From Desulfarculus sp. (GTDB taxonomy: Bacteria; Desulfobacterota; Desulfarculia; Desulfarculales; Desulfarculaceae): DNA of 14,877 nucleotides. Every line of letters starts with the position of its first letter. Within the stretch, counting starts at the first letter, position 1. Of the stretch, positions 5,676 to 14,765 are shown one piece after another. The translations under genes were made by a program, and so were the position numbers. Location: positions 1 through 14,877 of the forward strand of contig JAIUYB010000008.1 in assembly GCA_020216625.1 (NCBI GenBank). The letters run 5' to 3'. A model generated the notes under the pieces. The model saw nothing but the letters and a program-made list of their open reading frames with translations. It was not told the DNA's origin and did not search any database.

Positions 5676-6081
5676 ACGGCGCCCCGCGACCACGGCGTCG
5701 CGATCGCCGCGCGTCTTGGGGCTGACTGACTCAAGGGGGGGGCTGGTCAACCGACATCCCGGTGGCCAGGAACGCATGGATTCCTTTCGCGTCAAGCGGT
5801 TGGCGCTGGCCGCGGTGGCTGGTGGGTCACGGTCGTCCGACTGTCGCCCCGATACGTTTCCGGTTGTCCGGCCTCCCCGGCTCCACCAATGTCCGTGCCT
5901 TGAAATTCCCGGTCCCGTCCCCTATATTTTGCCCCGGGTCGGCAGTTCACCCAGGCGTCGCCGCCCCCTTTGGGGGTGCTAAACCTGTCCATTTCCCACC
6001 CGACCGACACTTATCCCGTGCCGGGCCGGAAGACGGCGACCACCGGCGATCCCTTGCGGATGGCACGTAAGGGGATAAGTC
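5676..6081. other. Gene-free interval upstream of the DUF2087 gene
   Basis: About 400 bases without a supportable gene. The left end has overlapping GC hairpins just after the stop at 5675 (for example GCGAC/GTCGC around 5686-5701) that could end transcription, but no U-run. The right half carries a good promoter (5900-5928) and a ~145-base leader with a CCCCC-TTT-GGGGG hairpin near 5973-5985. I compared the leader with the TPP, c-di-GMP and SAH riboswitch signatures that I know and recognised none. Confidence 0.5.
5900..5928 (+). promoter_or_regulatory. Sigma70-type promoter of the DUF2087 gene
   Basis: TTGAAA (5900-5905), a 17-base spacer, then TATATT (5923-5928); both hexamers match five of six consensus bases. 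Transcription would start near 5935, leaving a leader of about 145 bases before the ATG at 6082, which is long enough for post-transcriptional control. Confidence 0.65.
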
Positions 6082-6636
6082 ATGTCCAGAGCCGTATTGC
6101 CTCTGCACGCGGAGGATATCTCCGCCCTGGCCCGCTCGTTGCGCAGCCAGCTCTCCGCCAGCCCCCAGCCGCCCAGCCATTTGCAAATGCTGAACATGCT
6201 GGCGCGGGCCACTGGCTTCCGCAACTTCCAGCACCTGCGGGCCCAAGCCACCCCGTCCGAGCCAGCGCCCTTCCCGGCCCCCGGCGTCGCGCCTGCGGCC
6301 CTGGACCAGGGCCGGCTCCAACGCCTGGCGCGTTTCTTCGACGACCAGGGACGCCTGGTGCGCTGGCCGGGCAAACACCGCCAGCGGGTGGCCTGCCTGT
6401 GGGTCATCTGGTCCAAGCTGCCGCCCCGGCGACGCTTCAACGAGAAGGAAATCAAGCAGCTCCTGGACGAGCTGCACCTTTTCGGCGACCACGCCCTCCT
6501 GCGCCGCTTCCTCTGCGACCTGGGCCTGGTGGAGCGCACCGCCGACTGCCGCGCATACTGGCGGGTGGAGCGCCGGCCCTCCGCCGAAGGGCTGGCCCTG
6601 ATGCGACATTTGGCGGAGGGCTCAGCGACCCGATAA
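6082..6636 (+). CDS. DUF2087 domain protein, putative DNA-binding regulator
   Basis: A 184-residue soluble protein. Residues about 10-55 (ISALARSLRSQL, then HLQMLNMLARATGFRNFQHL) resemble the short helical N-terminal segment found before glyoxalase-like and related bacterial proteins. Residues about 75-165 match the DUF2087 pattern: RLARFFDDQGRLVRWPGKHRQR, a helix, then RRRFNEKEIKQLLDELHLFGDHALLRRFLCDLGLVERTADCRAYWRV, a winged-helix-like arrangement in which the GLVxR-x-YWRV part is the wing. DUF2087 proteins are usually treated as transcription-regulator-like, but targets are unknown. A purine-rich TAAGGGG lies nine bases before the ATG. It has its own promoter and ends at a strong terminator, so it is probably monocistronic. 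Confidence 0.85.
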   Translation: MSRAVLPLHAEDISALARSLRSQLSASPQPPSHLQMLNMLARATGFRNFQHLRAQATPSEPAPFPAPGVAPAALDQGRLQRLARFFDDQGRLVRWPGKHRQRVACLWVIWSKLPPRRRFNEKEIKQLLDELHLFGDHALLRRFLCDLGLVERTADCRAYWRVERRPSAEGLALMRHLAEGSATR

Positions 6637-6769: not shown

Positions 6770-8128
6770 CTACTTGAAGCAGCAGAACACCCGGTTCTCC
6801 AGGATCTCCACCTTGTCGTTCAGGAAGCGGGTGTTGAACTTGGCGTTGCGCAGGATGTTGTAGCCCATCTCCGCCCGCAATCCGGTGCGGCAATGGACGA
6901 TGATCTCCTTGTCCTTGGGCAGCTCGCCCAGCCGGCCGGACAGGGCGTCCACCGGGATGTTCACCGCTCCCGGCAGCATGCCGGCGCTGGTCTCGGCCAG
7001 GGTGCGCACATCCAGGATCAGCTTGTCCGGGGGCTGGTTGTTCACGATATTCATGAACTCGTCGCCGGTGATCTCGCCGGGATGGGGCCGGGGCAGATAG
7101 AAGATCTTGGTGCGCACCAGATCCTTCTGGATGGGCCCGTTGGCCTTGAGCCAGCCCTGGTAGCCGCCATCCAGGATGAAGACCCGCTGATAGCCCCAGG
7201 AGCTGATCTGCTTGACCACCGGGGCCAGCTTGTCCAGATCGGTGTGGTCGGAGTAGAGCACCAGGTAGGCCTTGCGGTCCACCGGGAACTGCTCCTTTTC
7301 CTTGACGATGCGGTCCAGGGGGATGGCCACCGCGCCCTGGATGTGACCCTGCTTGGCCGCGGCCTCGCCCCGGGTGTCGATGACCACCAGGTAGCCCAGG
7401 CGGTCGTTGACGAACTGGGCGGTGCTGATCAGGGGCAGGCCGGCCTGAGTCCAGGCGGGCACGCCGGCGTGGAAGACCTTGACATTGGTGTAGCCGTTCT
7501 TTTCCGCCAACCTGGCGGCCATGGGCGAGAGCACTCATCTGAAGCCCCCGCAGTAGAAGACCAGGAGAGTGGACTTGTCCTTGGGCAGCTTGTCCATCAT
7601 GTCCGGCATGTTGCCGAAAGGCATGTTGATCGCCCCGGCCAGATGCCCTTCCTGATAGTGGGCCGGAGGCCGGGAATCCACCAGCAGGTACTTGCCCTGC
7701 TCGGGGCTCTTGGTCATCAGTTCCTGCACCTGCTGGACGCTGAGCTGCTGGGCCTCGGGCACCTTGATCACCGGCTTGGCCTTGACCAAGGTCGCCACCC
7801 GGTCCGAGCCCTGCTGCTCAAAGTAGACCATCACCGGCACCGGCTTTTTGAGCTCCTTCAAGGCGGGCACGTTCTCGACCTTGGTGTTGTCGTTGAACTT
7901 GATCACCTCGTTGCGGTCGCCCACTTCCACCTGGATGGACTTGGCCTGGTTGGAGAGGCTCTGGAACTCGCCTCCCACCACGTTGGCCTTGTCCTTGTAA
8001 TCATTGTGACATTTCAAGCAACTGGCGGAGATCATCCCACCTCCGTCGGCCAGGGCCGGACTCGCGCCGGCCAGCAAGATCAGGCCCATCCATAGCGCCA
8101 GGCCGCGCCAGGACCGCAGTCCATCCAT
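6770..8128 (-). CDS. Exported selenocysteine-containing triple-rhodanese protein with a c-type heme site
   Basis: One 452-residue protein if the UGA at 7537-7535 is read as selenocysteine (Sec198). Both halves are in the same frame and the reading continues without a gap. Order of parts: signal peptide (1-27, ending SPALA); a CLKCH heme c site (37-41); a small beta region; rhodanese 1 (about 110-220) with FYCGGFR-Sec-VLSP, where Sec falls where relatives have the catalytic Cys (YCGGxxCxLSP), followed by GYTNVKVFHAGVPAW; rhodanese 2 (about 225-325) with YSDHTD in place of an active-site Cys, so probably inactive; rhodanese 3 (about 345-440) with the loop HCRTGLRAE, active-type. It ends at UAG. 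ATG 8128 has GGAGGT five bases upstream. It likely transfers sulfane sulfur (or reduces a chalcogen substrate) in the periplasm. An ordinary annotation would split it at 7535 into two proteins or call a pseudogene. Confidence 0.88.
7504..7537 (-). promoter_or_regulatory. Sec UGA codon and SECIS-like hairpin
   Basis: After the UGA (7537-7535) the mRNA folds CCGCC-AGGUU-GGCGG (7518-7504): a 5-bp GC stem with a 5-base loop that starts 22 bases after the UGA. Bacterial SECIS elements are hairpins just downstream of the UGA whose small apical loop begins with G-rich bases near GGU; the E. coli fdhF loop is AGGUCU. Distance and loop fit well. No fold calculation was possible. Confidence 0.72.
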
Positions 8129-8149
8129 CTCACACCTCCATCGCGGGAC

Positions 8150-8178: not shown

Positions 8179-8327
8179 CAATCAGTTTACGGGCCCTAAC
8201 GCGGGGAGTCAATGGGTTTGGCAATACATTTTGGCTATGGACATTGTCGTTATCGATGCACCCCCTGGCCAACAAAGACTTGCCCTGGCCCACGGGGTCG
8301 GGGATGATACAAGTAATCAGAAAAAAA

Positions 8328-12322: not shown

Positions 12323-12667
12323 CCACCGTCATCCGCCGGGTCCGCCAGGCCCCGCCCCGGCGGTTTAGCCCACTATTTTAATGGTTATCCTAAATTAGGT
12401 ATTTATAAGCCGCGCTAATTTCTGATCAATTATCAACCATGCTCGTATTATTTTTTAAATATTCATTATCAATAACTTTTTTATCATCCGTCGCACTTTT
12501 CGCTTGGTTTTGGAACTGGTCATGAGCTTAAAATTTAGTATTGGTGGGCCGCTGGATGAAACCGGCGTCCGCCCAATCCAGGCCGTGAGCTTGAATTACA
12601 CAGAAAAGATCAGCACGCATGCCGCCGCCACCGGGCGACGGACCAGCCGGGGAAGGGGGTGCAGCCC
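12323..12667. promoter_or_regulatory. AT-rich regulatory island before the cytochrome genes
   Basis: About 345 bases without a gene. Positions 12370-12545 are strikingly AT-rich compared with everything around. The motif TTATCAA occurs at 12430-12436 and 12466-12472, with TTATCAT at 12481-12487, and TGATCA begins a near-palindrome at 12423. No spacing fits a canonical FNR box (TTGAT-N4-ATCAA): the best one has five bases between half-sites. The island probably holds the promoter and activator sites of the downstream operon, but I cannot fix -35/-10 boxes. Confidence 0.5.
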
Positions 12668-13267
12668 ATGGCGGGGGATGAAATCTCCGGGGGGGGCCCA
12701 AAACTGCCCAGCCGTAAAAAGCGCGGACGGTTGCCATCCTGGGCGCCGCCCCTGATCTATGTCGCCATCGGCCTGATCCTGGCCTTCCCCCTCTTCAGCC
12801 TGACTTACTACACCATGGCCCGCACCTCCACTCCGGAGTTCTGCGCCTCCTGCCATGAGATCCAACCAGCCTACAACGCCTGGAAAACCTCCACCCACAC
12901 CAACAACGCCCAGGGCTTCGTGGCCGACTGCATGGATTGCCACCTGCCCGCGCCCCACGACACCTTCGAGTTCTTCTACGCCAAGACCGCCCACGGCCTT
13001 AAGGACATCGTGGTCCACTTCGTGGATGGTCCGGAAGCCTACGACCGTCAGGTGCAGCGCGAGAAGGCCTGGGCCACCATCAAGAACGACCAATGCCTGA
13101 AATGCCACCGCAACCTGCTCTACCTGCCCAAGAGCCGGGGCGCGATGCTGGCCCACCGCACGGTGCTCTATCCGCTGCCGGGTTACGAAAAGCGTTGCCT
13201 GGACTGCCACCGCAACCTGGTCCACGTGGACCGCAGCTTCTACAACTACAAGAAATGCGACCTTTAG
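12668..13267 (+). CDS. NapC/NrfH-family tetraheme cytochrome c (quinol dehydrogenase, HaoC-like)
   Basis: A 199-residue membrane-anchored cytochrome. One transmembrane helix (about 28-49, APPLIYVAIGLILAFPLFSL) acts as an uncleaved anchor after a basic N-terminus. Four CXXCH heme sites follow: CASCH (59-63), CMDCH (88-92), CLKCH (143-147) and CLDCH (177-181), as in NapC/NirT/NrfH proteins, which oxidise menaquinol and hand electrons to a periplasmic partner. The gene beginning 73 bases later encodes an octaheme HAO-like enzyme, so this is probably its electron donor, as HaoC is for the reductive HaoA of epsilonproteobacteria. I start at ATG 12668 (AAGGGGG eight bases upstream); an in-frame GTG at 12659 is the alternative. 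Confidence 0.93.
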   Translation: MAGDEISGGGPKLPSRKKRGRLPSWAPPLIYVAIGLILAFPLFSLTYYTMARTSTPEFCASCHEIQPAYNAWKTSTHTNNAQGFVADCMDCHLPAPHDTFEFFYAKTAHGLKDIVVHFVDGPEAYDRQVQREKAWATIKNDQCLKCHRNLLYLPKSRGAMLAHRTVLYPLPGYEKRCLDCHRNLVHVDRSFYNYKKCDL

Positions 13268-13340
13268 GCCGCGTGGCCAGGGGCTTGGATCTTTGGGGAG
13301 CCCCGGCCAGGGGGTCCGAAGACAAGGAGGGGTTAGGAGC

Positions 13341-14765
13341 ATGAGGAAATCGGTGCCGATTCTGGCGGGGCTGGCGGTTTTGCTGGCCATGGTGGCCTGG
13401 GCGGGGCTGGCGGCCAAAGCCCAGCCGGCCGGGGCGGTGCAGGCTCCCAACGTGGCCAAGGCCAAGGAGTTCCGCATCGAGCGCAGCATGTCCAAGCAGG
13501 CCCTGGCTTGCATCGAGTGCCACAAGCTGGAGAGCCCCGGCATCTTCGCCGACTGGGCCCACAGCCGCCATGCCAGCGCCAACATCACTTGCCTGGACTG
13601 CCACCAGGCCGAGGAGTTCGATCCCGACGTCAGCCAGGCCCACTACAAGCAGTATGAGCGTGGCGACAACAAGTGGGGCGCCAAGGAGTACCGGGTGCCG
13701 GTCACGGCCGTGGTCACGCCCAAGGACTGCTCGCGCTGTCACCCCGACGAGGCCAAGCAGTACTCGGTGAGCAAGCACGCCAACACCATCGAGATCATGT
13801 GGAAGATCGACCCCTGGCTCAACGCCGGCCAGAACAGCGACTTCGAGCGCCAGGCCGGCTGCTTCCACTGCCACGGCACCGTGCTGGCCATCAAGAATGG
13901 CAAGCTAGACCCCGCCACCTGGCCCAACGTGGGCGTGGGCCGCCTGAACCTGGACGGCAGCAAGGGCTCCTGCGCCTCCTGCCACACCCGCCACAAGTTC
14001 AGCGTGGCCGAGGCCCGCCAGCCCGACACCTGCGGTCAATGCCACCTGGGCCCGGACCATCCCCAGATCGAGATCTGGAACGAGTCCAAGCACGGGGCCA
14101 TCTACCGCTCCGAGTACACCCAGTGGAATTTCAACTCCGCCCCCGGCACCTGGACCGCCGGCGTGGACTACCGCACCCCCACCTGCGCCGCCTGCCACAT
14201 GTCCGGCAGCGGCAGCGTGCGCACCACCCACGACGTCACCGAGCGCCTGGCCTGGGAGGCCCAAGCCCCCCTGACCGTGCGGCCCAACGAGTTCCAGGCC
14301 TTTCCCGCCACCACCGACTGGAAGGCCGAGCGCGAGAAGATGAAGCAGGTCTGCCTGGCCTGTCACGGCCAACAATGGGTGGACGACCACTTCACCAAGT
14401 ACGACGGCGTCATCGCCAACTACAACGACAACTATTACAAGCCCGCCCTGGCCAAGCTCGAGGAGCTGTACCAGAAGGGCCTGATGGACCCCAAGGGCTT
14501 CTTCCGGCAGCCTCTGTTCACCGAGTTCTACGAGCTGTGGCACCACGAGGGCCGCCGCGCCCGCTTCGGCGCGGCCATGATGGCCCCGGACTACGCCTGG
14601 TGGCACGGCTTCTACGAGTGCAAGAAGCGCTACGTCAAGTTCATGCAGGAGGCCGACCACCTGATCAAGACCGGCGAGAAGGCCTACATCGCCCCGGTGC
14701 TGCCCGGCGCCACCGGCGACACCACCCGGCCGCCGCAGATCTTCGGCAAGCCCGCCGCCAAGTAG
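13341..14765 (+). CDS. Octaheme hydroxylamine oxidoreductase-like cytochrome c
   Basis: A 474-residue periplasmic enzyme. A signal peptide (1-27, LAGLAVLLAMVAWAGLAAKA) precedes eight CXXCH sites: residues 57-61, 84-88, 130-134, 174-178, 211-215, 231-235, 282-286 and 338-342. Landmarks of the HAO family are TPTCAACHMSG, THDVTERLAWE, a CLACHGQQWVDDH final heme and the C-terminal FYELWHHEGRRARFGAAMMAPDYAWWHGFYE. The fourth site (CFHCH) would be the catalytic P460-type heme. Reductive HAOs and oxidative ones differ by a tyrosine cross-link to P460; I cannot align the position here. With a quinol-linked donor upstream, reduction of hydroxylamine or nitrite to ammonium is more likely than oxidation. 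The longer frame from 13293 is not used: AAGGAGG (13324-13330) precedes ATG 13341. Confidence 0.93.
   Translation: MRKSVPILAGLAVLLAMVAWAGLAAKAQPAGAVQAPNVAKAKEFRIERSMSKQALACIECHKLESPGIFADWAHSRHASANITCLDCHQAEEFDPDVSQAHYKQYERGDNKWGAKEYRVPVTAVVTPKDCSRCHPDEAKQYSVSKHANTIEIMWKIDPWLNAGQNSDFERQAGCFHCHGTVLAIKNGKLDPATWPNVGVGRLNLDGSKGSCASCHTRHKFSVAEARQPDTCGQCHLGPDHPQIEIWNESKHGAIYRSEYTQWNFNSAPGTWTAGVDYRTPTCAACHMSGSGSVRTTHDVTERLAWEAQAPLTVRPNEFQAFPATTDWKAEREKMKQVCLACHGQQWVDDHFTKYDGVIANYNDNYYKPALAKLEELYQKGLMDPKGFFRQPLFTEFYELWHHEGRRARFGAAMMAPDYAWWHGFYECKKRYVKFMQEADHLIKTGEKAYIAPVLPGATGDTTRPPQIFGKPAAK

Follow-up and report, generated by a model that had tools for sequence, protein, structure and literature searches.

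A conserved in-frame UGA in the active-site loop of a three-domain rhodanese of Desulfarculus sp. points to an exported selenoprotein

Background

Does a single in-frame UGA in a rhodanese gene of Desulfarculus sp. end translation or specify selenocysteine (Sec), and what would Sec do at that place in the protein? The question is raised by two open reading frames on the minus strand of contig JAIUYB010000008.1, whose first 14,877 nucleotides were analysed and are referred to here as the window. An earlier note on this DNA described the two frames as lying in the same reading frame and abutting at a single UGA (7537-7535); the sequence, the coordinates and the frame all proved to be as described there.

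Results

Organization of the gene

Read through the UGA, the two frames form a single frame of 452 codons with one in-frame UGA, at codon 198 (Table 1). The gene had also been credited with a promoter, a good ribosome binding site and a UAG end. The ribosome binding site and the UAG were found, and the promoter is represented by consensus matches only: besides the match listed in Table 1, a second sigma-70-like sequence lies upstream of the gene at 8178-8150, and four such matches were counted over both strands of the 2 kb scanned versus 0.5 expected in shuffled sequences.

Pfam recognized nothing but rhodanese in the product, in three stretches that sum to 143 bits, and PF00581 was supported by the profile match as well as by the fold. 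Foldseek returned low TM-scores for the whole chain and the VIA-align matches were mostly to single domains. No NCBIfam model (June 2026) reached its cut-off for the window protein or for four of its relatives. Judged from its N-terminus and domain content, the gene appears to encode an exported three-domain rhodanese.

Table 1. Features of the rhodanese gene and its product (window coordinates)
Feature	Position	Strand	Basis
Sigma-70-like promoter match	8184..8212	-	consensus only
Ribosome binding site GGAGG	8135..8139	-	6 nt spacing to ATG
Putative selenoprotein gene, 452 codons + TAG (ATG at 8128, TAG at 6772-6770)	6770..8128	-	frame, Pfam matches, same UGA in 32 loci (window included)
Putative N-terminal export signal, residues 1-28	8045..8128	-	sequence, by eye; helix 8-19, low pLDDT
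CLKCH (residues 37-41), single c-type heme motif	8006..8020	-	CxxCH motif
Rhodanese domain 1, residues about 124-236, loop C193-x4-U198	7421..7759	-	
Cys193, canonical rhodanese persulfide Cys of domain 1	7550..7552	-	alignment with 6mxv; after strand 188-192
UGA codon 198, probably read as Sec	7535..7537	-	TGA in 32 of 42 distinct loci
Bacterial SECIS-like hairpin, bases +16 to +32 after UGA	7503..7519	-	core +17:31 to +21:27
Rhodanese domain 2, residues about 237-333, without Cys at the active position	7130..7420	-	
Rhodanese domain 3, residues about 350-440 (Cys413 codon 6892-6890)	6809..7081	-	

Conservation of the UGA codon

The best 120 of 1076 homologues found with P0001 fell into two groups. 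Fragments of 248-258 aa, all starting at residue 199, 200 or 203, accounted for 108 of them. The remaining 12 were full length, and the Cys that had been proposed as the counterpart of the UGA stood at position 198 in ten, with Ser in P0006 and Asp in P0017. A search with the distant family member P0122 gave the same picture among its best 120 of 348 matches, of which 89 were fragments and 31 full length: all fragments except P0148 start at the first, second or fifth residue after the UGA of P0122, and every full-length protein reads CxxxxC. Among the matches listed, the protein database searched thus mostly shows only the second half of the UGA-form proteins.

The comparison was extended to DNA. 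The related-locus search supplied 21 loci from named genome contigs. A set of 60 related genomes held 13 full-length matches, the window included, each with exactly one TGA. In 395 genomes of the phylum screened at E up to 1e-70, 27 genomes matched (including that of the window); 20 of these have one in-frame stop, always TGA, and seven have none. A stop that is single and always TGA in 20 of 27 matching genomes argues against chance.

Altogether 42 distinct loci were compared; second copies (L037-L041, L043-L045, L047 and L065-L067), the paralogue L048 and the other rhodanese matches L049-L064, of which only L054 was examined, are left out of the counts. Codon 198 is TGA in 32 loci (window included) and TGT or TGC in seven, and in three the Cys is shifted to one position earlier. 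TAA or TAG never takes the place of the TGA. The earlier note had named further stops in the same gene as refuting the Sec reading, and none was seen in the 32 UGA genes, one of which (L025) is cut by a contig end. On both sides of the UGA the second codon position is the least variable and the third the most.

Several families of the phylum have the UGA form, one carrier being Desulfocarbo indianensis (L028), and Cys forms are found in Nitrospirota as well (L032, with the shifted Cys, and L034). A tree of 51 rows, whose bootstrap is not fully settled, needs nine changes of the Sec label, seven of them forced by well-supported branches, which indicates that Sec and Cys have been exchanged repeatedly. 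All seven genomes of the phylum screen with a Cys or shifted-Cys form retain selA, selB and tRNA-Sec above the cut-offs.

A hairpin downstream of the UGA

The window sequence GCCGCC-AGGUU-GGCGGA may form a hairpin with 5-6 bp, a loop of 5 or 3 nt (AGGUU at 7513-7509), a free energy of -9.9 kcal/mol and a UGA-to-loop distance of 21 nt, with a G within the first two loop positions. In the published model of the bacterial SECIS (PMC13188914) the stem has 4-16 bp and the loop 3-9 nt, G is the first or second loop base, the loop lies 16-37 nt from the UGA, and the minimum free energy (MFE) does not exceed -7.5. The window hairpin agrees with this model, and the hairpin MFE is at most -7.5 in 30 of the 32 UGA loci.

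The 5-bp core is intact in 30 of the 32 UGA genes, versus 4.3 expected when synonymous codons are drawn from each gene's own usage with the protein held fixed, a statistic that ignores shared ancestry. Base 23, in the loop, is G in all 32. The two genes with four of the five core pairs, L078 and L084, have a hairpin MFE of -6.4 and lack the heme motif. Base +16 can pair with +32 in just 14 of the 32 loci, and this outermost pair is not counted as part of the core. In pair +18:+30 both bases are third codon positions, of Ala codons except for Ser at the first in four loci, and the pair reads C-G in 21 UGA loci, U-A in six, G-C in three and U-G in two, so that C-G, U-A and G-C are swapped through silent changes. 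Counted on the tree, which complements the resampling (its bootstrap is again not fully settled), at least three changes occurred on the 5' side and at least five on the 3' side, with pairing always kept.

In the seven Cys loci the core is never intact, against 0.06 intact cores expected, and the loop G is kept once; the amino acids of these genes alone make the stem unlikely, and its absence is therefore weak evidence. The MFE of the 17-nt hairpin separates UGA genes (-6.4 to -11.6) from Cys genes (-2.4 to -5.4), whereas that of the stretch from UGA to +38 does not (-7.9 to -17.3 versus -6.0 to -13.6). Folding of the window stretch as a single sequence gave z = -0.36, 67 of 200 shuffles being as stable, and provides no evidence; the case for the hairpin lies in its conservation beyond what the protein requires and in the covariation. 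The Rfam SECIS family had no match in the window at E up to 5. RF00031 found nothing in the genome of the window nor in 14 control genomes, and the failure in the controls makes this null uninformative.

Selenocysteine genes in the carrier genomes

The assembly that contains the window is 70 % complete and consists of 557 contigs. The presence of sel genes, put forward in the earlier note as a check, was borne out for selB (373.9 bits, cut-off 242.25) and for selD, represented by a fragment at L012:1-419 (G000:C180; 186 bits, cut-off 125); neither selA nor the gene for tRNA-Sec (selC) turned up in what is a 70 %-complete assembly. Six weak tRNA-Sec candidates coincided with ordinary Ser, Leu, Trp and His tRNAs in ARAGORN and were rejected. 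The selD fragment has itself an in-frame UGA in its N-terminal motif (ARAAG-U-AAKIGP), at what we take to be the usual Sec place of SelD.

Congeners exceeded the cut-off for selA in four of five genomes and for tRNA-Sec in two of five. Over the 32 genomes examined, selA was above the cut-off in 30 (all but G000 and G001), selB in 31 (all but G169) and tRNA-Sec in 27 (all but G000, G001, G003, G005 and G016); of the genomes without a tRNA-Sec hit, G003 is 97 % and G016 93 % complete.

The Cys counterparts, the UGA conserved in 32 of 42 loci, the covarying SECIS-like hairpin and the presence of SelB with a UGA-containing SelD together support the Sec reading. Weighing against it are the misses of selA and selC in the window's own assembly and of tRNA-Sec in the four other genomes named, the Ser of P0006 and the Asp of P0017 at position 198 (the earlier note had listed a non-Cys residue there as refuting), the incomplete core in L078 and L084, and the absence of the gene from five congeners (see below). 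The gene is almost certainly a genuine selenoprotein gene, as the earlier note had held against a decayed one, and the computed features (frame, UGA, Cys counterpart, hairpin, SelB/SelD and domains) lead us to expect selenium in the protein.

The rhodanese loop and the heme motif

The earlier note placed the UGA exactly at the catalytic Cys, and on this point it has to be corrected. FYC193GG aligns with the FYCG loop of the Francisella rhodanese PDB 6mxv, residue 198 falling on a Ser of the latter. In the predicted model C193 comes directly after strand 188-192, C413 occupies the equivalent place behind strand 408-412 of domain 3, and residue 198 stands just ahead of the next helix. Alignment and strand position thus identify C193 as the canonical rhodanese Cys and put the UGA at +5, the second Cys of CxxxxC; by its sequence the window protein has the loop CxxxxU where homologues have CxxxxC.

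Cys193 is kept in all 32 UGA loci and Cys413 in all 42 loci. In domain 2 the equivalent residue is Ser293, and none of the 32 UGA loci has Cys there; an active-site Cys right after the pre-loop strand is thus present in two of the three domains (C193 and C413), and domain 2 is probably not catalytic.

Some relatives have a different loop. The second loop Cys lies one residue closer in L079, L080 and L032 (VGGC or IGGC). L080 has lost the canonical Cys but retains the second, a hint that the chalcogen at +5 can be more important than C193.

The motif near the N-terminus of the window protein would attach heme c. Among the UGA loci it takes the form CxxCH in 26 and Cx4CH in four, and two have neither, so the motif may be dispensable; it is also missing from one of the ten non-UGA loci. 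Cx4CH (CVQPGCH, CGIAGCH or CTAPGCH) replaces CxxCH in the same protein in L072-L075 and L034.

Genomic neighbourhood and regulation

Five genomes of the same genus were searched and all lack the gene, two of them being 97-99 % complete. Their lack of the gene led us to consider a mis-binned contig, which was rejected: several other stretches of the window match congeners at 70-81 % identity, as expected of a contig from this genus.

On one side the gene is flanked by genes for an FMN reductase and a flavodoxin, on the other by a DUF2087 gene; a radical SAM gene is also among the neighbours, and no Psr-like operon adjoins it. Elsewhere in the window, a COG3860 RNA motif (RF02940, 71.6 bits, gathering cut-off 42.5) lies at 5936-5990 (+) upstream of the DUF2087 gene (6082-6636), and 12659-14765 (+) encodes a NapC/NirT-type cytochrome followed by a multiheme cytochrome (PF13447), likely a quinol-linked reductase pair.

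A related ORF recurs near the gene in 14 of the 41 contexts compared, the window not being one of them, and is divergent upstream in L015, L016, L017, L019, L022, L024, L027, L029, L030 and L093. The two recurring ORFs tested, in L016 and L022, encode PAS-sigma-54 activators. The strict sigma-54 consensus is TGGCAY-N5-TTGC, and a -24/-12 site of this kind was found upstream of 10 of the 32 UGA genes versus 4 of at most 1600 random stretches (at most, since some skipped draws are still counted); there is none upstream of the window gene. In GC-rich loci, long conserved ORFs on the strand opposite the target were set aside as shadow ORFs.

Several Cys forms have neighbours of the polysulfide reductase type. 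In L103 and L108 the gene directly precedes genes for a molybdopterin oxidoreductase and a polysulfide-reductase-type NrfD protein, with a 4Fe-4S protein also encoded downstream in L108. In L109 the oxidoreductase is followed by an ORF that clusters with this 4Fe-4S protein. L104 has homologues of both the oxidoreductase and NrfD close by on the opposite strand. Pfam checks covered two neighbours of L103 and one of L108. The genome of the window has a Cys paralogue of its own (L113:1-2958, G000:C115; loop CEGLTC, i.e. CxxxxC), which sits after genes for molybdopterin-binding, 4Fe-4S and cytochrome b561 proteins, a layout resembling that of a thiosulfate or polysulfide reductase operon.

Discussion

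What the UGA and the protein may do

The best explanation overall is one exported three-domain rhodanese selenoprotein with SelB-directed Sec insertion and a role with sulfane sulfur, to which we assign a probability of about 0.88. The Psr-type neighbours of the Cys relatives and the rhodanese of the Desulfurivibrio Psr operon (see below) suggest this role, and the protein probably handles sulfane sulfur, as polysulfide, thiosulfate or persulfide, in the periplasm. In the mechanism proposed, SelB would recognize the hairpin, the loop of which starts 21 nt downstream of the UGA, and direct Sec to residue 198. C193 would take up sulfur as a persulfide. U198, more nucleophilic than Cys and in the position of a resolving residue, would attack this persulfide, releasing sulfide or passing the sulfur on and leaving an S-Se bond. 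Either the heme or a partner protein would then have to reduce that bond again.

A true stop at the UGA would mean either that two polypeptides are made, with a coupled restart at the GTG or ATG that follows, or that the gene is decaying. Both start codons do occur within five codons after the UGA, and it is there that 108 of the 120 listed matches start. Termination would then split the active-site loop, all 32 loci with a stop have TGA and never TAA or TAG, uninterrupted Cys homologues exist, and neither the hairpin with its covariation nor the lack of further stops in the 32 genes agrees with a terminator or with decay; we regard this explanation as very improbable. Still more remote is a UGA read as another amino acid, by an altered code or chance read-through. 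The open frame itself is all that speaks for it, while the usual aligned residue is Cys and not Trp, Sec genes are present, and in L036 a genuine TGA terminates this same gene.

The nature of the reaction leaves more room. Sec might be inserted into a pure sulfurtransferase, in which the role of U198 is limited to holding sulfane sulfur or handing it on, to domain 3 or a terminal reductase, and the heme undergoes no redox turnover. The three tandem rhodanese domains, the invariance of Cys413 (42 of 42 loci) and the heme motif missing from two of 32 UGA genes and one of ten others would fit such a protein, and the rhodanese of the Psr operon is called a sulfur-transferase in the available part of PMC12142623. 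Against it stands the paired chalcogen at +5, which simple transfer would not seem to require, and 30 of the 32 UGA genes retain CxxCH or Cx4CH; we rate the chance of pure transfer at somewhat below even. Handling of selenium instead of sulfur (reduction of selenite or selenotrisulfide, or perselenide carriage) appears improbable. Loss of ExtI leads to a defect in selenite and tellurite reduction, and the cluster concerned also holds ExtH, a 49 kDa rhodanese-like protein (PMC5877670, as far as its available text goes), yet ExtH is likened here by description only, and the Cys homologues L103, L104, L108 and L109 sit with molybdopterin oxidoreductases of the polysulfide reductase type.

Within the preferred reading, that of an exported Sec rhodanese acting on sulfane sulfur, net reduction rather than mere transfer is rated at less than even and put forward tentatively. 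Its fullest form, a heme-wired, selenium-dependent periplasmic sulfane-sulfur reductase with sigma-54-activated synthesis in some lineages, is rather unlikely. C193 would capture polysulfide sulfur, U198 would expel sulfide via an S-Se bond and the N-terminal heme c would reset the site; in some lineages synthesis would be switched on by the sigma-54 activator encoded next door. If this were true, a rhodanese would have been turned into a redox enzyme.

Comparison with known systems

A 2026 review lists, in its available part, five forms of rhodanese selenoprotein, namely UxxS, UxxG, CxU, a further UxxG and TsoB with UxxxxU (PMC13188914), and older lists name further rhodanese-type families in the portions available (PMC2398784, PMC5029168). 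The earlier note called Sec rhodaneses a known deltaproteobacterial class; as a class they are indeed known, and the present form is spread over several families of the phylum. No description of a heme-bearing three-domain rhodanese selenoprotein was recognized in the literature surveyed, largely that available without subscription.

TsoB (NF045694), a rhodanese/DsbD fusion-like protein, likewise has Sec in the rhodanese active-site loop. It was found in the congener G002 (L054:1348-3102, G002:C45; 1000.8 bits) with the loop FYUAGLTU, and the two Sec of this U-x4-U align with C193 and U198. The window protein differs in having no DsbD part, Cys at the first position, three rhodanese domains and the heme motif, and with 87.3 bits against a cut-off of 805 it falls outside the TsoB family. 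Since Sec at the same loop position is already known in TsoB, the window protein is best described as a half-Sec, heme-tagged, three-domain variant. Its motif U-V-L-S also reads UxxS, the motif of the form 1 rhodanese (WP_010941598.1; PMC13188914), which may for this reason have the same loop or even belong to the same family; the comparison is by motif only, and the available table row for form 1 gives neither a domain number nor a heme. Rhodanese_LYCAU (NF041203, form 3) also has Cys followed by Sec in its loop, spaced as CxU (motif from the available part of PMC13188914) instead of CxxxxU, and its best matching stretch is domain 2 of the window protein, which scores 79 bits against a cut-off of 115 and hence lies outside that family too.

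For Desulfurivibrio dismutans, the text available of PMC12142623 describes an exported three-rhodanese sulfur-transferase in the Psr operon and a strong upregulation of Psr expression during sulfur disproportionation. The protein RS06465 of the Desulfurivibrio operon has three PF00581 domains and a signal peptide, and the window protein likewise has three rhodanese domains; RS06465 is a predicted lipoprotein, and the window gene has other neighbours. The location in a Psr operon is shared instead by L103 and L108, with the molybdopterin oxidoreductase and NrfD just downstream, and in part by L104 and L109, a likeness of layout only.

A double-Sec paralogue, L048:1024-2166 (G010:C38), was found in a genome of the same family. 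Its rhodanese ORF contains two in-frame UGAs; each lies in a CxxxxU loop (FYCQGPTU and FYCQGFTU) and has a hairpin behind it at the spacing seen in the window. It is 32 % identical to the window protein over 322 residues and differs from it by the second UGA, a lipobox-like N-terminus (by eye) and the lack of a visible heme motif.

Sec rhodaneses are therefore already known, and the putatively exported, mostly heme-tagged, three-domain version is a variant among them. Taken together, these proteins offer a natural comparison of Sec and Cys within one rhodanese loop (CxxxxC, CxxxxU, UxxxxU and CxxxxU twice), and the bacteria concerned come from sulfur-rich settings, for which PMC9751629, in its available part, describes the enzymes behind sulfur disproportionation as only partly understood.
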